Positions 29,663-42,180 of a stretch of DNA of 42,180 nucleotides are shown piece after piece. Position numbers and translations under genes: made by a program. The DNA comes from Acidimicrobiales bacterium (GTDB lineage: Bacteria; Actinomycetota; Acidimicrobiia; Acidimicrobiales; SHLQ01): contig JAHDCX010000023.1 of NCBI GenBank assembly GCA_020629635.1, forward strand, positions 1 to 42,180, given 5' to 3'. How positions within the stretch are numbered: the stretch's first letter is position 1; each line of letters starts with the position of its first letter. The notes under the pieces are model-generated. The model was not told where the DNA came from. It did not search any database and saw only the letters and a list, made by a program, of their open reading frames with translations.

Positions 29663-30202
29663 GTGGTTCCCGAATACGACGAAGCGAAGTTTCGGCAGGC
29701 ACTTCACCTCGCCGCGTCCCGCATCGCCGATCACCCAAGCGCAGGCGCAACCAAGCTGAACAAGGTTCTGTACTTCTCCGAGTTCTGGCACTACCGCGAC
29801 ACCGGTACAGCGATCTCTGGTGCCGAGTTCGTGCACCGTCGGATGGGGCCCACGCCGTACCGGCTGCTCCCCGTCCGCGCAGCGATGATCGCTGACGGGC
29901 TACTCGAGATGGATGTCCGACAGGTCGGTCCCGGGATCGAAGAACACCGACTCGTTCCCGGCAGCACGATGGAGTACGACCTCCTCTCCGACGAAGAGAT
30001 CGCCCGGATCTCGTCCGTTGCTGATGAGCTCCGCGAGCTGAACGCATCGCAGGTCAGCGACCGATCACATCGCGACGCCGGCTGGCGCACAACCCAAGAA
30101 GGGGAGACCATCCCCTACGACGCGGTGTTCATGGACGCGGCCCAAGCGATCACACCAACCGCCCGTGAGCGCATGATCGCAGCCGAAGCGCAATACCTCT
30201 AG
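29663..30202 (+). CDS. Panacea-domain (DUF4065) protein, candidate antitoxin
   Basis: 179 residues from GTG 29663: AGGAGG at 29649-29654 is 8 nt before it, whereas a GTG at 29654 would overlap the ribosome site. The Panacea core is clear: TKLNKVLYFSEFWHYRD (residues 30-46), then ISGAEFVHRRMGPTPYRL, then MIADGLLEM. Panacea domains (SocA-like) act as antitoxins in PanAT systems paired with many unrelated toxins, and in other cases link to proteolysis. The next gene starts 6 nt downstream, the classic two-gene layout. Intact by eye. Confidence 0.82.
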   Translation: MVPEYDEAKFRQALHLAASRIADHPSAGATKLNKVLYFSEFWHYRDTGTAISGAEFVHRRMGPTPYRLLPVRAAMIADGLLEMDVRQVGPGIEEHRLVPGSTMEYDLLSDEEIARISSVADELRELNASQVSDRSHRDAGWRTTQEGETIPYDAVFMDAAQAITPTARERMIAAEAQYL

Positions 30203-30208
30203 CTCCAC

Positions 30209-30535
30209 ATGCCGCGTCGAGCAGTCGTCGTGTCTGCGGCGCTCGCGGACCAGATATCGGTTGCTCATCCGTTGGAGCGAACCGCAGGCGGCAAACCTTC
30301 GGAGTTCGACTTCTGGCAGGGTCCGATCGCCCGCGCAACCGAGAAGTTCGGTCGAGACTTCGATTCGCTGCTGTTCGTGAATGACCCGCGGGTCCGCGTC
30401 TTCACCTATCCAGACCCGGTCTTCGGCGCCATCTCCATCCTCGGTGTCCACAACATCGAGACCAACGAGATCGAGCTCGTCGACTACTGGAGCGACCCCG
30501 GCTACCGGGCCGCGATCGCCAGCGACCCATCGTGA
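30209..30535 (+). CDS. Small protein paired with Panacea gene, candidate toxin
   Basis: 108 residues, starting MPRRAVVVSAALADQIS only 6 nt after the Panacea stop. Possibly a folded alpha/beta domain: PSEFDFWQGPIARATEKFG, SLLFVNDPRVRVFTYPDP, VFGAISILGVHNIETNEIE, VDYWSDPGY. No membrane segment and no toxin motif that I know. By analogy with PanAT pairs it would be the toxin neutralised by the upstream protein. Could instead be a neutral partner protein; the assignment rests on the arrangement. Confidence 0.7.
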   Translation: MPRRAVVVSAALADQISVAHPLERTAGGKPSEFDFWQGPIARATEKFGRDFDSLLFVNDPRVRVFTYPDPVFGAISILGVHNIETNEIELVDYWSDPGYRAAIASDPS

Positions 30536-30677
30536 TCAGCGACTGCATCAAGCCACTGCTCTTGCTCGAACTTGACGGTGGCCGGTACCCGATCGAGAGG
30601 TTGAGACGAACGCGTCCTCAGTTTTGCGAGCTCATTGATCCGCCTGGGAGAGATCCGGCGGGGCGAATCGCAGTCGC

Positions 30678-30706
30678 TTGTGATATACCGAAGCTCGGTA
30701 TATAGT
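30678..30706 (+). promoter_or_regulatory. padR promoter with overlapping perfect palindrome
   Basis: -35 TTGTGA (30678-30683), 17-nt spacer, -10 TATAGT (30701-30706), then the padR ATG 6 nt later (leaderless). ATATACCGA-AGC-TCGGTATAT (30683-30703) has perfect 9-bp arms and fills the space between the two hexamers. PadR regulators bind ATAT...ATAT palindromes, so this is the expected autorepression site. Confidence 0.8.
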
Positions 30707-30711
30707 GGCGC

Positions 30712-31035
30712 ATGCGTCTCAACGAGCTTCGTCTCCTGATCCTGGCGGCGATCGCTGAGGAGCCGCTGCACGGCTACGCCGTCGCCGAAGAGATCAAGGT
30801 GCTCTCCAACGGCCACTACACCCCTCGGCCCGGAGCGCTCTACCACGCCGTCGACAAGCTGGTCGATGCTCGCCTCGTCGAACTCGACCGGGAAGAAGCG
30901 GTCGACGGTCGGGTCCGCCGCTACTACCGACTGACGAGGGCGGGTCGCGAGACGCTGACAGCAGAAGCCGAGCGCCGCGCCGCAACCGCCGCCGCGGCTC
31001 TCGGCCGAATCGGCCACATCAACCCGGCGACGTAG
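30712..31035 (+). CDS. PadR-family transcriptional repressor
   Basis: 107 residues. Winged-helix N-terminus with the family hallmarks: RLLILAAIAEEPLHGYAVAE, PRPGALYHAVDKLV, REEAVDGRVRRYYRLTRAG. The short C-terminal helix (ETLTAEAERRAATAAAA) should make the dimer. Starts at ATG 30712 on a leaderless transcript; its operator is directly upstream. The next gene begins 13 nt downstream and encodes a membrane protein, the common PadR pairing. Ligand unknown. Confidence 0.92.
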   Translation: MRLNELRLLILAAIAEEPLHGYAVAEEIKVLSNGHYTPRPGALYHAVDKLVDARLVELDREEAVDGRVRRYYRLTRAGRETLTAEAERRAATAAAALGRIGHINPAT

Positions 31036-31048
31036 AAGGACGAACACG

Positions 31049-31918
31049 ATGAACCGACTGGCAGCCGCACTCGCCCGCAGAATCGTCGAACGAAGCGGCA
31101 CCGATTCGCGCGTCGAAGAACTCCGCGCCCACCTCGATCAGCGAGAAGCGGACGGCCACCCGCTTTCTCTGCTCGACGTCGGGTCACTGGCGCTCCTCGC
31201 CATTCGCTCACCGCGATACCGAGACGCCGCTCGCTCGTTCTTGGCCTCCTACGGCGTCATGATGCTCGCCGCAATCAGCGGTTGGTGGGTCGCATCATGG
31301 TCTGGACTGATCGGGTCGACCGAAGCCTTCGTGGCGGAAGTCTTCGCGCTCGAAGAGTTCCGGTTTGCCGGAATCGCCATCCTCGGCCTCTTCGCTGTCG
31401 TCGCAGCCCTTGTCGCCACATTCCTTGTCTTTGCAACCCGAACGACGGTGCCTCGGGCATACGGCATGACCGTGCTCTTTGGCCTCGCCCTCGGCGTGTG
31501 GGCGGTCGCAAGCGGGGCGATCGCACAAACCGAAGCGGTCATCAGCGACGTGTTCGCGATCGAGGCAGAGATCGATCCGCTGATCGTTGCGCTCTGGTAC
31601 TCGGCCCTCTCACTGCCGATCATCGGGGGAATCGTGGTCCTTGCGCGCCAATCCTTCGTGAGGGCGTACTCCATGGTCCTGCTCTTCGGAGCCGCGATTG
31701 CACTCGCAGTCACCGCGAGTCGAAGCGTCGGCGGCATTGAAGCCGTCATTGGAGAGCTCGCTGGCGTTAAAGATCTTCAGATCAACGTGGTCCGTGCGCT
31801 CGCGGCCTATGCGGCCGTCATGTTGCCGGTCACCGCCGCGTTCACAACGCTGACGAAGCTCGCCGGGCGACCGCTGCGCTCAACCACCCGAGCGGTGGAC
31901 GAAACACCCTCGGCCTGA
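31049..31918 (+). CDS. PadR-linked multi-pass membrane protein
   Basis: 289 residues, AGAAGGACG before the ATG. Soluble head of about 60 residues (RRIVERSGTDSRVEELRAHL) like the N-terminus of DUF1700/HAAS-type PadR partners, followed by about six hydrophobic spans in pairs (for example SYGVMMLAAISGWWVASW, FAGIAILGLFAVVAALVA, YGMTVLFGLALGVWAVASG). Repeated EAxIxxxFAxE and EAVIxExAGV bits between spans suggest an internal repeat. No transport or enzyme motif identified. Probably under control of the upstream repressor. Confidence 0.8.
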   Translation: MNRLAAALARRIVERSGTDSRVEELRAHLDQREADGHPLSLLDVGSLALLAIRSPRYRDAARSFLASYGVMMLAAISGWWVASWSGLIGSTEAFVAEVFALEEFRFAGIAILGLFAVVAALVATFLVFATRTTVPRAYGMTVLFGLALGVWAVASGAIAQTEAVISDVFAIEAEIDPLIVALWYSALSLPIIGGIVVLARQSFVRAYSMVLLFGAAIALAVTASRSVGGIEAVIGELAGVKDLQINVVRALAAYAAVMLPVTAAFTTLTKLAGRPLRSTTRAVDETPSA

Positions 31919-31948
31919 CGAACGTCCTTCGGCCTGCGAGCGGCCTGG

Positions 31949-31980
31949 CACACGCCGCCCGAGGCACACGCCGCCCGAGG
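31949..31980. repeat. Two perfect 16-bp tandem repeats between convergent genes
   Basis: CACACGCCGCCCGAGG occurs twice back to back. The pair sits inside a larger inverted repeat, GCCTGCG upstream and CGCAGGC just after, so the RNA from either side could fold into a hairpin between the two converging genes. Confidence 0.6.
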
Positions 31981-32026
31981 CGCAGGCGCCCGATATTGGC
32001 TGAACCTCGCCGAGACAGCCAACCGC

Positions 32027-32716
32027 CTAATCGCTCGGCGCGATCTGGTAACCGACGCTGCGGACGTTTCGGATTGTGACCGTCATCCCCGGCACCGAGC
32101 GGAGCTTCTGTCGGATGCGGTAGACCACGCTCTTCACGATCGGGTCGTGTGCCCCGAGGTCGCTCACTTCCCAGACCTCCTCGACCAGCTCCGTGGTGGG
32201 GATGATCCGATCAGCGTTCAACGCCAAGTACTTGACGAACCGGAACTCGAGCGGTGTGAAGTCGATCCGAATGTCGTTGGCGAATGCGCTGTGGCTCTCG
32301 AGGACCAACCGGAGGTCGCCGACCTGGAGCTCTCGTTCTGCGGTGTGGGTGCGACGCAGGATGGCGCTCACCCTCAGGAGGAGCTCCTGCACGCTGAACG
32401 GCTTCGCCAGGTAGTCGTCTCCGCCCGCTTGGAGCCCGGCGATCACGTCTTCCTGGTCAGAACGAACCGTGAGGAACAGCACCGGTGCCTCGCTGCGGCG
32501 CCGAATTCGGCGACACAGGTCGAAACCGTTGGCGTCGGGCAGAAGGACATCGAGGACGACGAGGTCGACCGGATACTCGTCGAACGCCGCCATCGCCTCG
32601 GCACCAGTCTGTGCCTCGACGACCTCCATCCCCGCGGTGCGCAGCGCATACGAGGTCAACGCGAGCAACTGCTGCTCGTCGTCGACGACGAGCACGATCG
32701 GCGAAGACCCCGTCAC
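32027..32716 (-). CDS. OmpR-type response regulator
   Basis: 229 residues. Receiver domain with acidic pair D12-D13, phospho-acceptor D56 in LVVLDVLLP and Lys105 in DDYLAKPF; C-terminal winged helix (IDFTPLEFRFVKYLALN, VVYRIRQKL, VRSVGYQI). The GTG start overlaps the kinase stop by 4 bp (GTGA). It is last in a run of five same-strand genes starting at the substrate-binding protein, so it probably adjusts transport or a linked response. Confidence 0.93.
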   Translation of the reverse strand: MTGSSPIVLVVDDEQQLLALTSYALRTAGMEVVEAQTGAEAMAAFDEYPVDLVVLDVLLPDANGFDLCRRIRRRSEAPVLFLTVRSDQEDVIAGLQAGGDDYLAKPFSVQELLLRVSAILRRTHTAERELQVGDLRLVLESHSAFANDIRIDFTPLEFRFVKYLALNADRIIPTTELVEEVWEVSDLGAHDPIVKSVVYRIRQKLRSVPGMTVTIRNVRSVGYQIAPSD

Positions 32717-33516
32717 ACCATCTCCCGGGGGAGTTTGAGAAGGAACGCCGCACCCTTTCCGAGGGACGTGTCGACGGCCACGGTGCCACCATGAAGCGAC
32801 GCAATCGTCTCGACGATCGTCAACCCAAGACCCGTGCCGCCGGAATGCGATACGAACTGGCGAAACGAACGCTTGCGTTCTTCAGGGCTCATTCCCGCGC
32901 CATCATCCCAAACCGAGATCACGATCTCGCGTTCGTTCTGGAATGTCCGCAACGTGACGGTGCCACCGACGGAGGTATGCCGAATCGCGTTCTGCACCAG
33001 GTTCGTGATCGCTTGGCGCAGCAGCGCCTCGTCGACCATCGCCAGCGACAGCACCCGCGGGTAGTCGAGCGCGAGTTGTTGGTCTCGGAGTTCGGCGAGG
33101 CGACGCATCGACCGCCAGACCTCCTGAACAACGTCGCGGACGTCGGTCGGCGCAAGATGGATCGAGAAGACGCCGGCTTGCAGCCGGGTCTCCGTCAAGA
33201 TGTTGTCGGCCAAGAGAAGCATTCGGGCGGTCGACTGGTCGATCTCGCCCAAGAACGCACGCTGATCACCAGACAATGGGCCCGGCACCTCCGAGAGCAT
33301 CATCTCCGTCGTTGCGGTGATGAGCGCCAACGGGGTTTTGATCTCATGAGCCAGAACGGAGTACTGCTCGCTTCTTGTCGCGAGGCGGGTCCGAGCCGAG
33401 CTCAGCTCGCGACGCGTTCGATACAGGGCCAGCGCCACGAGGGTGAGCGCAACTCCCAGGGCAATGGCGAGTGCGGTGATCGGAGGCTCCTTTGCCAGCT
33501 TCGCTGATCCTGCCAC
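32713..33516 (-). CDS. Histidine kinase with a single N-terminal membrane segment
   Basis: 267 residues, GTG start. One hydrophobic span (13-32), then the dimerisation domain with H57 in SVLAHEIKTPLALI, then the ATPase domain: N176 in NLVQNAIRHTS, DDGAGMS, and GGTGLGLTIVE. There is no periplasmic loop, PAS, GAF or HAMP domain, so it cannot sense outside signals alone. Being 27 nt from the transporter ATPase gene, it may read the transporter's state. The start could be a few codons later; the span is kept in either case. Confidence 0.9.
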   Translation of the reverse strand: MAGSAKLAKEPPITALAIALGVALTLVALALYRTRRELSSARTRLATRSEQYSVLAHEIKTPLALITATTEMMLSEVPGPLSGDQRAFLGEIDQSTARMLLLADNILTETRLQAGVFSIHLAPTDVRDVVQEVWRSMRRLAELRDQQLALDYPRVLSLAMVDEALLRQAITNLVQNAIRHTSVGGTVTLRTFQNEREIVISVWDDGAGMSPEERKRSFRQFVSHSGGTGLGLTIVETIASLHGGTVAVDTSLGKGAAFLLKLPREMV

Positions 33517-33543
33517 ACGGCTCGAGGGCGATGCCCCCTCGCG

Positions 33544-34707
33544 TCATGGTCGGGGCTTCACCGCGAGAAGCGCATCGGCATGCACCATTGCGAGCACACC
33601 GTCACCCTCGCCTGGCAGATCACCAACGCTGTCCCGCGCCAACGAGTGGCTGCGCATCGCCTCCAGCAACGTGCCGTCGTTCAGCTCGACCGTGAACTGT
33701 GTTGCGGCGCCGAGGTACTCGATGCGGCGAACCCAACCCGGCGCCTGGATGTGGCGATCCTTCGCAGTGATGTTGCGGTCGTTGGGCGAGTCGAGAGGAG
33801 TCAGCGTCACGTCTTCGGGCCGAAGCACGAGGACAAAGTCTTCGTCCAAGCCGCCCGGATCGTGGAGCTGCAGGTGGGTGCCGAGGACCGAGACCGACAG
33901 GCCTTCCGAGGATCGCTTGAGTGCACTCGCCCGCAACACATTCGCCTTGCCGATGAAGTCGGCGACGAACAGCGTCGCCGGTCGGCGATAGATCTCGTGA
34001 GGCGCACCGACTTGTTCGATCCGGCCCTCGCTCATCACGACGATCCGATCAGACATCGCCATCGCTTCTGTCTGGTCGTGCGTCACGTACACACTCGTGA
34101 TGCCCAACTGCTGCTGGATGCGCCGCAGTTCCGAGCGCATCTGTTCGCGAAGGCGAGCGTCCAGATTGGAGAGCGGCTCGTCGAAGAGCAGGACCCGCGG
34201 ACGGATCACGACCGACCGTGCGAGTGCGACCCGCTGCTGCTGGCCACCGGACAATTGCGTCGGGAGCCGCTGCTCGAGTCCAGCGAGATCCATGATCGAC
34301 ATGACCACGCCGACTCGTTCTTCGATCTCGTCCCGTGGGGTCTTCGCAATCCGAAGTCCGTAGGCGATGTTCTCGAACACCGTGAGGTGCGGAAAGAGGG
34401 CGTAGCTCTGGAACACCATCGCCATCGGACGCTTGTTCGCGGGCACGTCGTTGATCGGCTCGCCATCGAGCGCCACGACACCGGCCGTGGGCTGTTCGAA
34501 ACCGGCCAGTATCCGCAACAGGGTGGTCTTTCCGCATCCCGACGGCCCGAGGATCGTCAAGAACTCACCGTCATGGATCTGGAGGTCGATCGACTTCAAC
34601 GCCTCGTGCCGACCGCGCTTGGTATCGAAGACCTTTTGGACCCCGGACACTTCGACGACGCTCGACTCGACGCTCGTTCGGATCGGAACGCTCGGTGCAG
34701 CGGTCAT
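33544..34707 (-). CDS. ABC transporter ATPase, FbpC/PotA type
   Basis: 387 residues from ATG 34707 with AAGGAG 7 nt upstream; it overlaps the permease stop (ATGA). Walker A GPSGCGKTT, Q-loop MVFQSYALFP, signature LSGGQQQRVALARS, Walker B VLLFDEPLSNLD and switch VYVTHDQTEAM are all present, plus a C-terminal TOBE region (FVLVLRPEDVTL). It powers import by the two-domain permease at 34704-36410. The family includes Fe3+, polyamine and phosphonate importers; substrate not fixed by this subunit. Confidence 0.95.
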   Translation of the reverse strand: MTAAPSVPIRTSVESSVVEVSGVQKVFDTKRGRHEALKSIDLQIHDGEFLTILGPSGCGKTTLLRILAGFEQPTAGVVALDGEPINDVPANKRPMAMVFQSYALFPHLTVFENIAYGLRIAKTPRDEIEERVGVVMSIMDLAGLEQRLPTQLSGGQQQRVALARSVVIRPRVLLFDEPLSNLDARLREQMRSELRRIQQQLGITSVYVTHDQTEAMAMSDRIVVMSEGRIEQVGAPHEIYRRPATLFVADFIGKANVLRASALKRSSEGLSVSVLGTHLQLHDPGGLDEDFVLVLRPEDVTLTPLDSPNDRNITAKDRHIQAPGWVRRIEYLGAATQFTVELNDGTLLEAMRSHSLARDSVGDLPGEGDGVLAMVHADALLAVKPRP

Positions 34708-36410
34708 GATGAGCTCCTTTTTGCAAGCGCGTTCGCGTCGGACCGGAACCCGGTCGTCGCCGCAAGCACGCCGATGGCGAACAGAACAACGGTGACGAGG
34801 ACCACGCTGTAGGCAGCGGCGTTGCCGAAGCGCCCCTGGTCTGCCTCGTTGAGAATCTGCGCAGTCATAATTCGCCATTGCGGCGTGACGAGGAAGATGA
34901 TCGGCGACAACGACGTCATCGATCGGGCAAAGCTCCAGACGAGACCGGAGAACATCGCCGGCCGGATCAGCGGGAGGATGATCTTGCGAAAGGTCTGGGC
35001 TTGAGTCGCACCCAAGCTGATCGACGCCTCCTCGAGCGTGCCCGACAGCTGATTCAGTGCGCCCACGGCCACGCGCACCACGCCGGGCAGGCTGCGGATC
35101 GTGAAGGCGAGGACGAGGATGGCTGCGGTGCCCGTCAGTTCCGGGATGAGACCCCCGAGGAGCGGCTCGTTGTACGCCAACAGCAGGCCAATGCCGATGA
35201 TCGTGCCCGGCACGGCCACACCAAGCACCGAGGCGAAGTCCAACAGGGAACGACCGCGAAAGTCCCGCTGCGTGATCACGAACGCAATGATCAGACCAGC
35301 GATCGCCGAGATGGGCGTGGCAATGAGCGCGAGTCGGATCGTGTCAAAGAGTGCTTCACGACCGGCACCTCGGAGCACCAGCAAGATGTTGTCGAACGTC
35401 GGGGAGAAGTTGATGTTCCAGACCTTTGTGAACGCCCCGACCACGATGTAGCCGTAGATCAAGACGATCGAGGCAGCGATCACCGTCGCCGACCCGACCA
35501 GCGGGAGACGAACGCTTTGCTGCTCGATCGGCTTCGGTTCGCCGACAGGCTTTCCGGTCACCGTGATGTATTCGCGCTTGCGTAGCCAGAAGTACTGGGT
35601 GCCAAAGACGAGCAGCGACGGAACCAACAGCATCACGGAGAACACGGCAGCCTTGTCGAGGTTGAATTCGCCAATGATCGCCAAGTAGATCCGGCTTGCG
35701 AGCACGTCGTAGCCGCCACCGAGCAGCACCGCGTTGCCGAGGTCGGCGATCGCCGAAACGAACAACAACAGAAACGAGTTGGCGATACCTGGCGCGAGCA
35801 GCGGGAGGATCACCGTCCGGAACCGGTAGGTCAGCGTGCCGCCGAGGTCGGTGGCGGCTTCTTCGAGCGCACTGTCGAATGCCTGCAACATCCCGACGAA
35901 GTTCAGATACGCGACAGGCATGAACGAGATACTCAAGGCGATCAGCAACCCGTCCAACCCGGTGATGTCATAGCGAAGGCCAAACAGCTCCTTGGAGATC
36001 AATCCGCTGCGTCCGAAGAGCGTGAGTACCGACATTGCGACGGCAAACGGCGGAGAGATCACGGGTATCAGCGTGATCAGGTGCAGGGTGCGCTTGAAGC
36101 GCACATCGGTCCTGACCTGGACGAGGGCCATGACCAACCCGGCGATCGTCCCGATCACGCCGACCAATGCACCGAGGATCATCGTGTTCCGGATGGTCGA
36201 GACGGTCTTGTTCGCCCCGGCAAGGCGGTCCCACTCCGTCTGCCCATCTGCCCCGAGCGAACGGCCGATGATCTCGGCAGTCGGGTAGACGACGAACCCG
36301 ACGATGATCATGACGGACACGAACGCGGCCAAGCCAAACGCACCTTGGGCTCGTATCCGGCGGATCAACGGGGCGACCGGCGTACGTCGTGGTCGCTGGA
36401 GTGTGGTCAC
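34704..36410 (-). CDS. ABC transporter permease, two fused domains (FbpB type)
   Basis: 568 residues from GTG 36410 with AAAGG upstream; the frame stays open above it but crosses into the substrate-binding gene region. About 12 spans in two halves. Each half carries the EAA loop that docks on the ATPase: EEAATDLGGTLTYRFRTVIL and EEASISLGATQAQTFRKIIL. The fused arrangement is characteristic of Fe3+-type importers (FbpB, SfuB). Overlaps the ATPase gene by 4 bp and follows the binding-protein gene after an 88-nt gap holding a hairpin. Confidence 0.94.
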   Translation of the reverse strand: MTTLQRPRRTPVAPLIRRIRAQGAFGLAAFVSVMIIVGFVVYPTAEIIGRSLGADGQTEWDRLAGANKTVSTIRNTMILGALVGVIGTIAGLVMALVQVRTDVRFKRTLHLITLIPVISPPFAVAMSVLTLFGRSGLISKELFGLRYDITGLDGLLIALSISFMPVAYLNFVGMLQAFDSALEEAATDLGGTLTYRFRTVILPLLAPGIANSFLLLFVSAIADLGNAVLLGGGYDVLASRIYLAIIGEFNLDKAAVFSVMLLVPSLLVFGTQYFWLRKREYITVTGKPVGEPKPIEQQSVRLPLVGSATVIAASIVLIYGYIVVGAFTKVWNINFSPTFDNILLVLRGAGREALFDTIRLALIATPISAIAGLIIAFVITQRDFRGRSLLDFASVLGVAVPGTIIGIGLLLAYNEPLLGGLIPELTGTAAILVLAFTIRSLPGVVRVAVGALNQLSGTLEEASISLGATQAQTFRKIILPLIRPAMFSGLVWSFARSMTSLSPIIFLVTPQWRIMTAQILNEADQGRFGNAAAYSVVLVTVVLFAIGVLAATTGFRSDANALAKRSSS

Positions 36411-36463
36411 AGGTTGCCTTTCATCGAGACGGAGGAGCGAGCGAGAGGGACAGCGCTTCGGAG

Positions 36464-36480
36464 GGGGACAGCGCTGCCCC
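36464..36480 (-). other. Near-palindromic hairpin between binding protein and permease genes
   Basis: GGGGACAGCGCTGCCCC can fold on itself and is preceded by a second AGCGCT copy at 36451-36456 inside the direct repeat GGGACAGCGCT. In many importer operons such hairpins protect the 5' part of the mRNA or partly stop transcription so that binding protein exceeds permease. Confidence 0.45.
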
Positions 36481-36498
36481 TTTGTTCGCGCGGTGCGT

Positions 36499-37674
36499 CT
36501 ATTCGGGGGCGTCAGCCCCGCCGCGGACCTCGTTGGCGAACCGCTCCGGGAAGTCGCCAGCTCGAAGATCTTCGGCCAGCTGTGCCGAGTAACCATCGGC
36601 CAGCGGAACGTCGCTCAACGCAATCGCTTGTTCTGGGACGGCAGCGTCTGGGTGGGACGGAATCTGGAATGAGTTCACCGTGGCCGCAATCTCTTGTGCC
36701 TGTGGAGTCAACGCCCAGTCGACGAAGGCCTTGGCCGCCTCGGGGTGGGCGGCATTCGCGATGATCGAGACCTGGCCGACCTCAAAGCCCGTGCCTTCAG
36801 CCGGGAAGGACACGTCGAGGTCGACGCCCGTCTCGAGCTCGAACTTCACGCAGTCGTGGGCAAAGATCACCGACGCCCCAACCTCGCCCTGAGCCGCCAT
36901 ACGGCCGGGGGCCGAACCGCTGCGGGTGTACTGGAAGATGCTGCTGTCGAGTTGCTTCAGGTATTCGAGCGCCGAGTCTTCGCTGCCTCGAAGCGCCACG
37001 AGGTTGGCCGCAGCCGTGGCTGCAGTGCCCGACGTCCGTTGGTCGGCCATGGCGATGTTGTCTTCGAACGCCGGATCGAGCAGGTCGTCGTAGGACTGCG
37101 GTGCGCTGATGCCGGCGTCTGCGAGGAATTCGGCGTTCGAGCAGAAACCCAACGCACCAACGTAGATGCCGGTCCAGGTTCCGTCGCCCGACTGGAGCTC
37201 TGGCGGAATGTCGGCCGCGTTTGGCGAGACGTACGGCTCGATGAAACCGTTCTGCGCTGCCGTCGCCGGACCGAGGCTCGGCCCGCCGAACCACACGTCG
37301 AACGACGGGTCATCACCCTCCGCTTCCAAGCGGGCGATCGCTTCCCCGGTGGACAGGCGCACGTACTCGGCGTTCACGCCCGTGGTCTCGGAGAACGCCT
37401 CGGTCGCGGCCTCGCACCACTCCTCTTGCGGCGTGCACAAGATGATGAGGTCGTCCTCGAGCACTGGTGCGTCGGACGCAGCGTCGGATGTTGGCTCTTC
37501 GGCGTCGTCGTCTACCGACGCGGTGTCGGCGGCCGTCGTATCCGGTGATTGTTCGGCTTCTTCGGTTTGCGTCGCCCCTTCGGTTGCGGTCGGGTCGGAC
37601 TCGGCATCCGAGCCGCACGCAACGGCGACGAGTGCCAGTGCCGCAATGAGAGATATTTGTCGAAAGCGTCCCAT
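36499..37674 (-). CDS. ABC transporter substrate-binding lipoprotein, Fe3+/phosphonate class
   Basis: 391 residues, GGGAGGA upstream of the ATG. Lipobox LVAVACGS (Cys20), an acidic linker to about residue 70, then a periplasmic-binding fold: DLIILCTPQEEWCEAA, VNAEYVRLSTGEAIARLEAE, VWFGGPSLG, WTGIYVGALGFCSN. This matches the class-1 iron/AfuA-like binding proteins. Fe3+ coordinating tyrosines cannot be assigned by eye, so phosphonate, sugar phosphate or polyamine remain possible. First gene of the five-gene operon. Confidence 0.88.
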   Translation of the reverse strand: MGRFRQISLIAALALVAVACGSDAESDPTATEGATQTEEAEQSPDTTAADTASVDDDAEEPTSDAASDAPVLEDDLIILCTPQEEWCEAATEAFSETTGVNAEYVRLSTGEAIARLEAEGDDPSFDVWFGGPSLGPATAAQNGFIEPYVSPNAADIPPELQSGDGTWTGIYVGALGFCSNAEFLADAGISAPQSYDDLLDPAFEDNIAMADQRTSGTAATAAANLVALRGSEDSALEYLKQLDSSIFQYTRSGSAPGRMAAQGEVGASVIFAHDCVKFELETGVDLDVSFPAEGTGFEVGQVSIIANAAHPEAAKAFVDWALTPQAQEIAATVNSFQIPSHPDAAVPEQAIALSDVPLADGYSAQLAEDLRAGDFPERFANEVRGGADAPE

Positions 37675-37887
37675 GGGACGTCCTCCCCCTGAGTCGGGAT
37701 GGGTCGGCGGAACCCGCCCATCGGTTCACGGCTCACGTTCCTCGACAACGCCGACAACATCCATGGCTACCAGGTCGCAGGTGGGTCGCAGGAAAGTCGC
37801 GAGACCCCGACGTATGACCACGAATGCGGCGAGTCAGAGGACGTCGCCAGATTCGACATGCGACGTTCGCCGAAGAAGGGTATTCAG

Positions 37888-38467
37888 ATGAGGTCGACCC
37901 ATGTACTGGTGGTCGAACGCTGTTGGCGGGCACGACCGTGGCTGGCCGTAACGATCGCCGTGTTCAGCGGACTCGCGTTCGTCATATTGATGGTGGCGGC
38001 CTGGACGGCGTCAGGAGGAGAGCGGGTGGCCTCTGCCGTGCTCGCCACGGTTGTCGGCCTCGTACTCCCCGCCGCAGTTCTCGCGCTCGCATGTCGCGTC
38101 GAGATCGCTGGTGATGAGCTTCGAGCGGGCGTCTGGCCGGTCGCGTCGGTCGCCGTTCCTGTCGCGGCGATCGTCTCGGTACAGGTCATCCGGCGGTCCT
38201 CCCCGACGGTGAAGGACTTTGGCGGATACGGAGTGAAGCGACGCGGTGAGGACGTGCTGCTCGGATTCTCGAGCGACCCTGAGTACCCCGAAGTGCGCTA
38301 CACCACTCCAAACACCGGTCCATCGTGTGCTCATACTGGCCGTCGGACCAAAGGAAGCGATCCTTCGGGCAATCGAGGCATGCGGGCGGTGCCCTCACTC
38401 AAGAACGACAGCCCACGCCATGATCTCCAGCTCGGGCAGGTCCTCTCGCCCCAACTCGTTGAGGTAG
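37888..38467 (+). pseudogene. Membrane protein with PH-like C-terminus, frameshifted near the end
   Basis: ATG 37888 with GAAGAAGGG upstream. Two membrane spans (about 20-45 and 52-72: LAVTIAVFSGLAFVILMVAAW) precede a small strand-rich domain (CRVEIAGDELRAGVWPV, VKDFGGYGVKRRGEDVLLGF), as in DUF3093-like proteins. Around 38325 the expected ending continues one frame over: HRVLILAVGPKEAILRAIEA, stopping at 38467. In the original frame the chain runs on for about 260 more codons that are merely antisense to the genes on the other strand. A one-base loss near GGTCCATCG explains it; a sequencing error cannot be ruled out. Confidence 0.6.
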
Positions 38468-38733
38468 CCCCACTCCTGGCCGATCATGCACAACCGCTCG
38501 CTGGGCAGCTGGGGCAACATCGCGTCGACATGGGCCCGCCGGCCGCGATCGCCTTTGACGGAGCGCAATTCCTTCAGCTCGTCCTTCGTCAACAACGCGA
38601 ACATGCCCGACGTCCCGCCGACCGAATCGTTGGGCAACAGACGCTTCTCGAGAAGCAGCCGAGACGCGCTGGCCATCGACTGCGGAGCAGAAACATCTCC
38701 GTCTTCGAGCAGGGCAGACCCCGTTTGGATGTC
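38395..38733 (-). pseudogene. Second part of the TAA-split gene, or a separate small gene
   Basis: Continues in frame from the TAA: DIQTGSALLEDGDVSAPQSM, then LLLEKRLLPNDSVGGTSGMF, ALLTKDELKELRSVKGDRGR, ending in EIMAWAVVLE at TGA 38395. The first ATG is at 38676 and another at 38604 (MFALLTKDELKELR), which resembles the start of DUF1877-like proteins, so a separately translated gene is also possible. No ribosome site is obvious at either ATG. Overlaps convergently the end of the frameshifted gene at 37888-38467. Confidence 0.5.
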
Positions 38734-39072
38734 TTAGGCGACGAGATCCGCACACGACTCCACTGCGCGGGCGATCTCGGTGAGCGCAGAAACCGTCTCC
38801 TTGATCGGACCCGAAGACAAGCTCACCGTCATCGTGATCTGACCGGGATACCCAACCAGCTCGACATGAGACGTCGGATGCGAAAGCCGGCGATCGGTCA
38901 CTTCGATCGACGGCACGGCAGCCCGGGCTGCCCGAACGATGGACTTCCACTCGGCGTCCAGGTCGTCGGTCCACTCGGCCGTGCCGGCCACCGTCTCCGC
39001 CTCGATGCGCTGCATCGCCTCGTCCCAACGCCCACGCATCGACTCGGCCACGAAATACACGTCATGGGACAT
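38734..39072 (-). pseudogene. Hypothetical protein, first part of a gene split by an in-frame TAA
   Basis: 112 codons from ATG 39072, with AGAAGAGG upstream. It begins MSHDVYFVAESMRGRWDEAM and contains LSHPTSHVELVGYPGQITMT. It ends ...ESCADLVA then TAA (38734-38736), directly followed in the same frame by DIQTGSALLEDGD. Related proteins that I recall have a YDPQ-like motif here, so TAA probably replaced a Tyr codon (TAC/TAT). The product may still fold if the lost tail is dispensable. Family name not assigned. Confidence 0.6.
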
Positions 39073-39176
39073 GGCCCTCTTCTAGCCCAGATAGCCCAAC
39101 TCGACGCGCCCCGGACCTGACCGCGGGCACTCTCACGATGGCGACGACGACGAAACTGGCGGACTAGCTTTTCGTC

Positions 39177-39713
39177 ATGGGCGGAGTTCAGTGGGTTGTT
39201 GATGCAGCCTGGTGTGGATCGGTCGAAGCGAGCCTGCGGGCGGCTCATGATGAATTGATGGACCCGATGCGGTTGGCCGAGCTGCTCGGCCCGCCCGGCG
39301 ATCTCGAACTTCGTTGCATGTCCTTGCTTGAGATGTTCGAGTTCCTTCCGCCGGAATTTGCATCCGACGAACTCCGGGCGCTGCTCGAAACGGCGCAAGA
39401 AGACATTCAATCGAAAGGCGTTCCCACCACCCGCGATGCGGTGATGGCCGTCATGGCGGAGGACTTCGGTACTGGGTCCGTGCTGGACGTCGATCCCAGC
39501 TTGGCCGACGATTCGGCGGCCACTGTTCAAGCTGTCGAGCTTGACGCCAACGTGACGGAAGCGCTCTACGGCACCACGACACCTGCGCTTAGCGACGTCC
39601 TCGAGAACTCGTCTTGGCATCCAGAAGAGCGCAACACGTGTCGCTACGTGATCGCCCACGACCGGGGCGTGCCGACCGCTGTCGTATTCGCAGGGCTCAC
39701 GAGCGATCGCTGA
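39177..39713 (+). CDS. Hypothetical soluble protein
   Basis: 178 residues, no signal or membrane segment. TAGCTT (39165-39170) ends 6 nt before the ATG, fitting a leaderless mRNA. Helical N-terminal half (SLRAAHDELMDPMRLAELL, SLLEMFEFLPPEFASDELRA), then an acidic part (SLADDSAATVQAVELDANV) and a compact ending (ERNTCRYVIAHDRGVPTAVV). Family not recognised. Divergent from the TAA-split gene. Confidence 0.7.
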   Translation: MGGVQWVVDAAWCGSVEASLRAAHDELMDPMRLAELLGPPGDLELRCMSLLEMFEFLPPEFASDELRALLETAQEDIQSKGVPTTRDAVMAVMAEDFGTGSVLDVDPSLADDSAATVQAVELDANVTEALYGTTTPALSDVLENSSWHPEERNTCRYVIAHDRGVPTAVVFAGLTSDR

Positions 39714-39752
39714 TAGGTCGGGAGAGACACGTGGCGACATCGCCCGCCCTGC

Positions 39753-40025
39753 TCAGACGATCCGGAAGCTGGCCAAACCTTCGGCGGGGGCGTCGGTCAC
39801 GTCGACACTGCTCACCTTCGCCCACGTCGGGCCGCGGCGACACCAGGTGATCAGTTCGTCGATGACGTCGGGCGGACCTTCGGCGACCACCTCGACCGAC
39901 CCGTCGGGAAGGTTGCGGACGGTGCCCGCAACCCCGATCGACTCGGCGAAGCGGGCACAGTTGGCGCGGTAGCCGACTCCTTGGACCCGACCCCGCACGA
40001 TCATTCGCACGCGCCTCACCGTCAC
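39753..40025 (-). CDS. acyP: Acylphosphatase
   Basis: 90 residues, the normal size. GTG start at 40025 overlaps the stop of the VOC gene upstream (GTGA). The family signature GRVQGVGYR holds the catalytic Arg20, and Asn38 in TVRNLPDGSVEVVAEG is the second catalytic residue. Hydrolyses acyl phosphates such as acetyl or carbamoyl phosphate. Complete. Confidence 0.93.
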   Translation of the reverse strand: MTVRRVRMIVRGRVQGVGYRANCARFAESIGVAGTVRNLPDGSVEVVAEGPPDVIDELITWCRRGPTWAKVSSVDVTDAPAEGLASFRIV

Positions 40026-40375
40026 CCCAACCGCCGAGCGAACGAGATCTCGTTGGCGTCCGGGTCGGTCACGTGAAAGTACCGTTCGCCCCACGGCGCG
40101 TCGGCCGGCTCGGCGTGCGGTGTGTAGCCGGCATCGATCAGCGCCGCATGTACGTCGTCCGGGCTGGCGACATGGATGATGATCCGCCCCCACCCCGACG
40201 TCGGCGTGTACTCGTTAACCGTTTGCAGGTTCACGAAGGTGCCCCCGCCTGCCTTGAGGGACGTGAAGGCCGCGTCGGGCCCGCCGTAGGCATACGCCAA
40301 ACCGGCGGCTTCCCAGAAGGCACAGGCGCGGGCCATGTCGGCGGTGTGGAATGTGATCGCATTCAGCCCCGACAT
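40022..40375 (-). CDS. VOC (glyoxalase-like) protein
   Basis: 117 residues from ATG 40375. Single beta-alpha-beta-beta-beta repeat pattern: LNAITFHTADMARACAFWEA, FTSLKAGGGTFVNLQ, GWGRIIIHVASPDDVHAAL, YFHVTDPDANEISFAR. The His in TFH, the later His and the Glu in NEISF are at metal-binding positions. Substrate unknown; relatives include bleomycin-type resistance proteins and dioxygenases. Coupled to acyP. Confidence 0.85.
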   Translation of the reverse strand: MSGLNAITFHTADMARACAFWEAAGLAYAYGGPDAAFTSLKAGGGTFVNLQTVNEYTPTSGWGRIIIHVASPDDVHAALIDAGYTPHAEPADAPWGERYFHVTDPDANEISFARRLG

Positions 40376-40436
40376 GGCGGCTAACCGTAGTGCCGCCATC
40401 GGTCCGAACGCGTGGGCCCTGCCTAGGCTTGCGCCG

Positions 40437-40769
40437 ATGTCCGCCGTCGCCGAGTGCCCGATCTGCACCATGCCCGAGCCGCTGCTGGCTGTCGACGGAT
40501 TCGAATGCGCGACGTGCGGCCACGAGTGGATGACCGACCCCGACCCGGCCGATGCCGCAGGCGAGGTCCGAGACGTCAACGGCAACCTGCTCGCCGACGG
40601 CGACGACGTGGTCATCATCAAAGACCTCAAACTCGACGGCAAGGCCGGGGGCATCAAGGTCGGCACCAAGGTGAAGTCGATCCGGCTCATCCCCGGCGAC
40701 CATCCCATCGACGGCAAAGTCAACGGCCGGGGTGTGCTCATCATGGCCGACAAGGTGAAGAAGGCCTGA
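40437..40769 (+). CDS. PhnA/YjdM-family zinc-ribbon protein
   Basis: 110 residues from ATG 40437; TAGGCT ends 7 nt upstream (leaderless type). N-terminal zinc ribbon CPICTMPE ... FECATCGHEW, then the PhnA domain VRDVNGNLLADGDDVVIIKD and LDGKAGGIKVGTKVKSIRL with GKVNGRGVLIMADKVKK at the end. Despite its old name this family is not a proven phosphonoacetate hydrolase. Complete. Confidence 0.92.
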   Translation: MSAVAECPICTMPEPLLAVDGFECATCGHEWMTDPDPADAAGEVRDVNGNLLADGDDVVIIKDLKLDGKAGGIKVGTKVKSIRLIPGDHPIDGKVNGRGVLIMADKVKKA

Positions 40770-40782
40770 GGGCGCGCGTTCT

Positions 40783-41157
40783 ATGGCACTTGGTCGTCTC
40801 GCGCTCGTCACCCTCGATTGTCCCGATCCTGTGGCGCTTGCGCGCTTCTATCAGTCGCTGATCGGCGGCGAGATCGACGACAGGGGAGCGGTCGAACACG
40901 GGTGGGTGCAGCTCAACACCGGTTCGGGCACCAACGTCGGGTTCCAACGCAATGACACCTTCGTGCCGCCCGACTGGCCCGACGGCGCCCAGCAAGGGCA
41001 AGCGCACCTCGACATCGCACCGGACGACTACGACGCGGCGGTCGCGACCGTCGAGGCGCTCGGCGCCCGACGAGCTACGGTCCAACCCAGCCCGGAGCAC
41101 TGGATCGTCTACTTCGACCCGGCCGGCCACCCCTTCTGCCTCGTCAAGTACCCCTGA
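40783..41157 (+). CDS. VOC (glyoxalase-like) protein
   Basis: 124 residues, 13 nt after the PhnA-like gene. Pattern: LALVTLDCPDPVALARFYQS, WVQLNTGSGTNVGFQR, AHLDIAPDDYDAAVATVEAL, WIVYFDPAGHPFCLVKYP. The FDPAGHPFCLV ending is typical of actinobacterial VOC proteins. The metal-site His at the N-terminus is not obvious (TLD), so activity is uncertain. Confidence 0.87.
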   Translation: MALGRLALVTLDCPDPVALARFYQSLIGGEIDDRGAVEHGWVQLNTGSGTNVGFQRNDTFVPPDWPDGAQQGQAHLDIAPDDYDAAVATVEALGARRATVQPSPEHWIVYFDPAGHPFCLVKYP

Positions 41158-41192
41158 GCCTTAGCTCCTGAGCACGTCCCGGCGATGGCCCA

Positions 41193-42050
41193 CTAGTTGG
41201 TCTTCGTAACGGCCACGCCCGACACGGTCAGGGTTCCGTCTTCGTTGATCGACGCCAGCGGCCATTCCTCCCCAGTGTCACGGATGGCGACGATCTGGCC
41301 ATCCGCACAGAACCACTCGCCGACGGGCTCAGTGGTGCCCTCGACGGTCAGCGACGATCCACCGTCGGCGAGCGTGAGCGAAACTTCGGCCTCGGCGCTG
41401 CTGTCCGTCTCGACTGACTGCCACGTCCCGTAGAAGTCCGTTTCGAGACATGGCGCGGCCGCAATGACGGGTGCATCGGCCACGACCCCCTCGGGGATCA
41501 CCTCGATCCGGATTCCCACGCCGTCGTCGCATGGTCCCAACGTGTCGTAGTAGCCGGGCGCCCCGAGCTCAGGGTCGAAGTCGGCGGTGAAGTGGCTTCC
41601 GCAGTCATCGGGGTCCGGGACCGGCCACTCGCCGGATTCGAACCGGACCAACAGCTCCTCGACCTCGTCGAACGCCTCCTCGACCGAACGCGGAACGGAC
41701 GCCCAACCTTCGGGGTCGGCCTCACCAAACACGACGGTCTCGGCCGCGGCGACGCCGTCGGCGTCGAACACGATCTCGATCATGTTGATCGACTCCACCC
41801 CGGCCCGGAACACGAAGCCGGGTGGCTTGCGCTCTTCCCACGCGGCCTTCGCTGCGTCGAAGTTTGCTCGAGCCTGGTCGAGGTCCTGCTCGCTGATTTG
41901 GGCGATCACGCCAGTCGAGGCCGAGCTTGTTTCGCTCGACCCTCCGCTGTCGTCGCCCGCCACCAACTCATTGGTCGATCCGCACGCGGTCGTCAGAAGT
42001 AGGAGGAGAGCGCCAAGCGCCAATCCGAGGGTCGTTCGATGGTGACTCAT
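41193..42050 (-). CDS. DUF6174-like lipoprotein
   Basis: 285 residues from ATG 42050; an upstream in-frame GTG lies in the divergent promoter region and is rejected. Lipobox LLTTACGS (Cys24), a Ser/Thr linker, then DLDQARANFDAAKAAWEERK, FDADGVAAAETVVFGEADPE and SVEEAFDEVEELLVRFESGE, the layout of DUF6174 proteins. The remaining part is strand-rich with three or four cysteines. Role unknown; on the outer face of the membrane. Divergent from the SOS-box gene. Confidence 0.75.
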   Translation of the reverse strand: MSHHRTTLGLALGALLLLLTTACGSTNELVAGDDSGGSSETSSASTGVIAQISEQDLDQARANFDAAKAAWEERKPPGFVFRAGVESINMIEIVFDADGVAAAETVVFGEADPEGWASVPRSVEEAFDEVEELLVRFESGEWPVPDPDDCGSHFTADFDPELGAPGYYDTLGPCDDGVGIRIEVIPEGVVADAPVIAAAPCLETDFYGTWQSVETDSSAEAEVSLTLADGGSSLTVEGTTEPVGEWFCADGQIVAIRDTGEEWPLASINEDGTLTVSGVAVTKTN

Positions 42051-42119
42051 GCTTCTTTGACGTTCGCACTCGCTCGGTGGTTCCCCATGGATTCGCCTCA
42101 ACTTTCTCGCTGTTCCGTG

Positions 42120-42163
42120 TTGTGGAATCAACCCCCAACAACTACAATCGAACACATGTTCGA
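42120..42163 (+). promoter_or_regulatory. Leaderless promoter with perfect LexA (SOS) box over the start codon
   Basis: -35 TTGTGG (42120-42125), 17-nt spacer, -10 TACAAT (42143-42148), ATG at 42156. TCGAAC-ACAT-GTTCGA (42148-42163) is an exact match to the actinobacterial SOS box (TCGAAC-N4-GTTCGA). It spans the last base of the -10, the transcription start and the ATG, so bound LexA would block transcription. Confidence 0.85.
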
Positions 42164-42180
42164 GGCCGGGAACAGTGCGA
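42156..42180 (+). CDS. LexA-controlled gene, first 8 codons (partial at window end)
   Basis: ATG at 42156 reads MFEAGNSA before the window ends. No ribosome site; the -10 is 7 nt upstream, so the mRNA should be leaderless. In mycobacteria, genes of the 13E12/DUF222 HNH-endonuclease repeat family carry this kind of SOS box, and their starts are similar, so that is my leading guess. Eight residues are too few to confirm. Confidence 0.5.

Follow-up and report, generated by a model that had tools for sequence, protein, structure and literature searches.

The last bases of a 42,180-nucleotide stretch of DNA from an Acidimicrobiales bacterium (the window, which is contig C17 in its entirety) pose a question of gene control: does an exact palindrome lying across the start codon of a gene that is cut after 25 nt act as an operator for LexA? 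The initial annotation had proposed tight LexA control of a leaderless gene, likely to encode a 13E12/DUF222 HNH protein. Passages of one paper give the SOS box bound by Mycobacterium tuberculosis LexA as TCGAAC(N)4GTTCGA (PMC4181829), and passages of later papers, as distinct from the primary reports, place M. tuberculosis 13E12 genes in the LexA regulon (PMC4181829, PMC5005354); LexA control of 13E12 genes is thus already known in that organism. The 13E12 sequences are described in part of the same literature as having the characteristics of mobile elements (PMC5005354), and sections of a preprint state that REP13E12 paralogs in M. tuberculosis swap sequence by gene conversion, of which they are hotspots, and that 13E12/DUF222 HNH genes, those of M. 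tuberculosis included, are without a defined function (PMC13061034, preprint).

An exact LexA-type palindrome over a start codon

The palindrome TCGAACACATGTTCGA (TCGAAC-ACAT-GTTCGA) occupies positions 42148-42163 of the plus strand with no mismatch to the SOS box, and is a predicted LexA operator. Eleven sites in the window match TCGAACN4GTTCGA with two or fewer mismatches, and this is the only exact one; between 0.0015 (base composition) and 0.011 (first-order Markov) exact sites are expected by chance. Its first base is the last base of a -10 element, TACAAT (42143-42148, plus strand), and it covers the ATG at 42156-42158 (plus strand), which was assigned as the start codon by comparison with full copies of the gene and is the predicted start of a leaderless transcript. 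The palindrome therefore overlaps the predicted promoter, as the initial annotation had said, sharing one base with TACAAT and covering the start codon. A predicted -35 element, TTGTGG (42120-42125, plus strand), lies 17 bp from the -10 element; it is weak, matching TTGACA at three of six positions, and a stricter sigma-70 scan of 41900-42180 called no promoter. Of the window's 954 ATGs, counted on both strands, this one alone is preceded by TTGN3-N17-TAN3T-N7. The 25 nt of the gene that remain (42156-42180, plus strand) encode MFEAGNSA before the contig ends. On the other side, a divergent gene for a lipoprotein-like protein of 285 amino acids (41193-42050, minus strand), which had no Pfam match, begins 98 bp away from the palindrome. 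An Rfam scan of 30000-42180 found nothing that reached the gathering score.

The predicted operator is copied together with the gene

The gene is a repeat at which the assembly was broken, which is why the window stops at its 25th nucleotide. Two complete copies, each encoding 410 amino acids, were found on contig C33 (C33:51825-53054, hereafter C33a, and C33:229298-230527, C33b), together with four 5' ends (C17, C4, C29, and C2) and four 3' ends (C13, C33, C2, and C12) cut at contig ends; the genome therefore holds about six copies, four of them broken by assembly. The gene is thus present as a dispersed multi-copy repeat, as is characteristic of DUF222/13E12 HNH proteins. The part of the repeat within the window (42092-42180, plus strand) is 96% identical to C33a and includes ∼65 bp of 5' flank; the divergent lipoprotein-like gene lies outside it. 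Among the copies and fragments compared, identity is 89 to 98%. The six copies, together with several members of the wider family described below, are close relatives and not independent.

All six 5' ends carry the exact box over the ATG, with the spacer ATAT in the C4 copy and ACAT elsewhere, and all six carry TTGN3-N17-TAN3T-N7-ATG, with the -10 element seven bases before the ATG. The left flanks fall by eye into three classes (C17 and C33a; C29, C33b, and C2; C4 alone), and by the same inspection the likeness within a class extends no further than ∼60 to 75 bp. In the C4 and C2 copies, the similarity starts near the palindrome itself. On the right side, the copies agree up to the stop codon (TGA; TAA in C2), past which C33b has 18 bp in common with C12 and ∼30 bp in common with C13. 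The right half-site belongs to the coding sequence (ATG TTC GA, Met-Phe-Glu/Asp), so that the predicted operator makes up one unit with the start codon and the reading frame, and the three are copied together. We infer that these units have moved and do not represent old duplicates whose flanks decayed.

Two further indications of movement were considered and rejected. A copy in genome G006 that is 94% identical suggested horizontal transfer between species; it adjoins the same neighbor DNA as the copy at the end of C33, the flanks of these two loci being 84.5 to 84.7% identical, with 87 to 88% identity of the gene to the window genome's own copies C33a, C33b, and C13. Because both copies stand beside the same neighbor DNA, they look like one inherited locus, and no transfer is claimed. 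Genomes G006 and G008 also contain homologues of the genes flanking C33a, which we take to be a gamma-glutamyltransferase and a metallopeptidase-like gene, without the HNH gene; another gene, threonine-dehydratase-like by eye, lies between them, however, and the site is not a clean empty one. A syntenic site for the window's own locus was sought in related genomes and none was resolved.

The gene product is assigned to the DUF222/13E12-type HNH proteins through its relatives

In Pfam searches, the two full copies scored 11.9 and 13.9 bits against HNH, for which the cut-off is 21.4, and neither matched DUF222 (PF02720) at E values up to 1; the protein differs from the M. tuberculosis 13E12 proteins in falling below the PF02720 cut-off. 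In an alignment of 27 family sequences, 7 match PF02720 and 11 match HNH at E values up to 0.001, Asp377-His378 is invariant, and Asn401 is present in at least 90% of sequences; the window's subfamily matches an HNH endonuclease in PHROG (E value of 0.00026). Matches of the family alignment to PADLOC, NCBIfam, and PDB were weak, with best E values of 6.4e-5, 1.2e-4, and 3.9e-5, and carried mostly nuclease names. The proposed identity of the product as a 13E12/DUF222 HNH protein, now backed by the near-identical 410-residue copies in the same genome, is accordingly supported by way of relatives, with the subfamily itself below the Pfam cut-offs and without a direct Pfam hit. The protein P0001 gave no plasmid match and no IMG/VR relative. 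For the protein of genome G060, discussed below, the matches were to 14 phage records and 1 plasmid record, each at less than 60% identity and none with 80% coverage.

The genome has one LexA and similar sites at other genes

A profile search of the window's genome found a single match to LexA_DNA_bind. By eye, three GAAC-N4-GTTC-like sites lie 5' of this lexA; the core is exact in one of them and has a single mismatch in each of the others. Exact TCGAACN4GTTCGA occurs 10 times in the genome (0.16 to 1.2 expected); six of these boxes belong to the HNH unit, and one, at C14:116218, heads imuA', the product of which scores above the NCBIfam cut-off for ImuA'. The remaining three are at L014, near a gene end, and at L015 and L016, inside long open frames. 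Taken with the match to the mycobacterial SOS box, the genome's own LexA and the sites at lexA and imuA' favor reading the palindrome as a LexA site. None of the six loci of this genome with a Pfam DUF222 match (L006-L011) has a box with one or no mismatch in the regions inspected, so not every DUF222 gene here possesses one. As a separate observation, the exact palindrome at L014:1501-1516 (C26:61242-61257) is near the end of a gene that is parB-like by eye, and apparently lies between two convergent genes and not in a promoter.

Box position across the family

The family survey took in 52 places, spread over the window's genome and 13 other genomes. Places without a locus were left out, as were L024 and L031-L035 (partial copies, and L033); 34 loci were considered, from which L043 (without a 5' end) and L045 (the same gene as L058) were dropped before counting. 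The resulting 32 members include two near contig ends (L048 and L049) and two with broken frames (L053 and L056). The 32 members tested come from 14 genomes, and 24 of them have a box with at most one mismatch between -150 and +100 relative to the predicted start; of 405 control windows, each of 250 bp and drawn from these loci, 3 contain such a box. Allowing two mismatches, TAN3T directly precedes or follows the box in 27 of 32.

When the geometry was classified, again with up to two mismatches and with the start chosen anew, the box lay over the ATG in 3 members, directly before the -10 element of a leaderless gene in 12, and before a -10 element with a longer leader in 12; 2 members had another arrangement, and 3 had none, one of which, L053, has an exact box under another choice of start. 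In the commonest layout, the box occupies the spacer between the -35 and -10 elements, where a TTG is visible; a box before the -10 element, as in 24 of 32 members, is outside the coding region. The same 16-mer covers the ATG of a distant member from another genus (L047 in G013; PF02720, 71.7 bits).

A box with an ATG in its spacer is common in the class: a scan for TCGAACNNATGTTCGA found a match in 224 of 395 genomes. At 30 such loci from other genomes, a family gene adjoins the box once, and the ATG in that box is not its start; the geometry is therefore not diagnostic of the gene. At one site, L113 (G046:C61:28073-28088), a uvrD-like helicase gene has its ATG within the box; an operator over a start codon is therefore not peculiar to HNH genes. 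These class repair genes, imuA', lexA, and the uvrD-like helicase, have the same type of palindrome as the HNH unit; they differ in being non-repeated, and the lexA sites are 5' of the gene.

Thirty paralogs of one genome begin in the same box

Genome G060, from another genus of the class, has 31 TCGAACNNATGTTCGA sites on a single contig of 2.5 Mb; its relatives G225 and G243 have 14 and 18, and in G198, the fourth genome from this genus, there is only one. A protein search of G060, which made no use of the box, recovered 30 family members (L156-L185), and all 30 begin in the exact TCGAACATATGTTCGA. One of them, L185, is a remnant, and in another, L172, the frame ends at codon 100; the stop reported for L163 and L181 is their end as read. 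The full copies are 64 to 87% identical to the query. The copies resemble one another from a point 29 nt before the ATG through the stop codon; positions -29 to -26 are conserved in 30 of 30, and conservation falls off upstream to weak preferences, such as T at -33 in 26 of 30. No sequence common to the 30 units was seen 3' of the stop codon. The second codon, Phe, is TTC in all 30 genes, whereas the remaining Phe codons of these genes are TTC 122 times and TTT 44 times; this speaks for selection at the DNA level. Directly after the box, the sequence is variable (GAT in 18 genes, GAC in 12). With 30 paralogs on one 2.5-Mb chromosome all starting within the same LexA box, control by DNA damage seems to be a property of the repeat unit itself.

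A probable LexA operator and its alternatives

We conclude that the palindrome is very probably a LexA operator, extending from the last base of the -10 element to the eighth coding base of a leaderless gene for a DUF222/13E12-type HNH nuclease. The box, the promoter geometry, the gene family, the copy number, the co-duplication, and LexA with its other LexA-type sites can all be seen in the sequence; LexA binding, repression, induction, leaderless translation, and nuclease activity are what we infer from them. LexA bound at 42148-42163 would cover the -10 element, the transcription start, and the start codon, and so would keep RNA polymerase off; upon DNA damage, RecA-stimulated cleavage of LexA would free the promoter, and a leaderless mRNA beginning at the ATG would be translated into an HNH protein that presumably acts on DNA. 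With operator and start codon one and the same, the locus would offer a simple example of how LexA can block a gene without a leader. The leaderless layout that the initial annotation had proposed remains a prediction, favored by the conserved promoter arrangement of the six copies; that annotation was right in its observation and, for the most part, in its interpretation.

The same 16 bases might instead have been kept as code for the N terminus (Met-Phe-Glu/Asp), or be a chance feature of recent duplicates, with no operator involved. Conservation of the box among copies and fragments that are 89 to 98% identical proves little by itself, and to that extent speaks for such an explanation. The left half-site, TCGAAC, is noncoding, however, and yet equally invariant; the diverged G060 paralogs keep all 16 bases in 30 of 30, with TTC and not TTT, while the very next base is free to vary; and the position before the -10 element, in 24 of 32 members, removes the box from the coding region altogether. 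We therefore consider this account highly improbable. A palindrome may also form a hairpin, either a terminator for the minus strand or the recombination end of the repeat, in which case the match to LexA would be incidental. A terminator-like minus-strand stem of six pairs, three of them GC, is indeed predicted, and the start of repeat similarity near the palindrome in the C4 and C2 copies would suit a recombination end. Within the window, however, no minus-strand gene reads into the palindrome, the divergent gene being 98 bp off and pointing outward; the box precedes a promoter -10 element in those same 24 members, and lexA and imuA' have sites of the same type. A hairpin as the main role is thus very unlikely.

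LexA could also bind here mainly for another purpose, such as control of the divergent lipoprotein-like gene, the start of which is 98 bp away, with weak control of the HNH gene. The box, however, accompanies the HNH unit, and not the lipoprotein-like gene, in six different neighborhoods, and it lies on the predicted HNH promoter; this arrangement, too, strikes us as most improbable. A LexA operator on the HNH gene is the reading that we adopt in what follows. Like the REP13E12 genes of M. tuberculosis, the genes described here are multi-copy 13E12/HNH genes with a TCGAACN4GTTCGA box, LexA control being a prediction in the present case; they appear to differ in that the predicted operator contains the ATG of a leaderless gene and forms part of what is repeated. 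A literature search by title, with the primary M. tuberculosis LexA-regulon reports outside its reach, recognized no SOS box over a 13E12 start codon; within that coverage, the operator-over-start-codon geometry and its spread within an amplified unit are apparently new.

Shared positions and possible exchange of cassettes

The G060 unit has clean boundaries, suited to testing both movement of the unit and nuclease-driven exchange. Pairwise comparison of the flanks of the G060 units gave no match at E values up to 1e-5, so that their surroundings are unrelated, and no target-site duplication longer than 4 nt was found for the 30 copies within the range scanned. The units of G225 and G243 (L141-L155) were compared with those of G060 by position. 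At all 10 loci compared, the flanks match those of some G060 unit; most positions are therefore shared, and the units do not move rapidly. L145 and L149 with L178, and L146 with L182, align in both flanks and are the same locus, yet the genes of L145, L149, and L146 are closer to a paralog elsewhere (83.1 to 85.9%) than to their positional partner (74.5 to 78.6%). For L148, L155, and L152, the best match is the positional partner (88.7 to 90.7%; L152 by the right flank only). In the other four loci compared, either the gene is broken or cut (L142 and L151) or the flanks are repetitive or discordant (L143 and L154); L154 is 90.0% identical to L169 and 82.6% to L176. The pattern in the G060 group fits an exchange of cassettes by gene conversion; the comparison does not show transposition.

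A PafBC-like element in the G060 units and at some DUF222 genes

All 30 G060 units carry TGTC (at -29) together with TANNNT (at -13), and in 23 of them the TGTC is part of TGTC(A/C)CACCCC. Part of one paper gives a RecA-independent damage promoter as tTGTCRgtg, 8 nt, and TannnT (PMC5656591), and a passage of another attributes it to PafBC (PMC8223512). By eye, TGTCACACCCC is followed, at a distance of five bases, by a TANNNT-like hexamer at L007, L008, L009, L010, and L025 in the window's genome and at L049 in G001, the hexamer being AAGAAT in L007 and L008. At these DUF222 genes of the window's genome, TGTC(A/C)CACCCC is found at L007:1376-1386, L008:2482-2492, L009:2527-2537, L010:1332-1342, and L025:2794-2804; L006 and L011 were inspected and have no TGTCACACCCC. 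The likeness to the PafBC promoter lies in the TGTC and the spacing, in the G060 family and in some of the window genome's DUF222 genes. The differences are that the "gtg" end of the first motif is unmatched and that the 11-mer, sought in the window, is absent from it.

In a more speculative extension, the DUF222/13E12 HNH genes of the class would be selfish, damage-induced cassettes, reaching from operator to stop codon, that spread to many sites and overwrite paralogs at fixed loci through SOS-triggered, nuclease-driven gene conversion, with the PafBC-like element of G060 and the LexA operator acting as a double lock. We regard this scenario as possible but rather unlikely.

TGTCACACCCC was also seen in L063, beside a gene that adjoins lexA. 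Finally, a second DUF222 family is duplicated in the window's genome: L007 (on C4) and L008 (on C15) are 95% identical from 8 bp before TGTCACACCCC, and their left flanks are unrelated.
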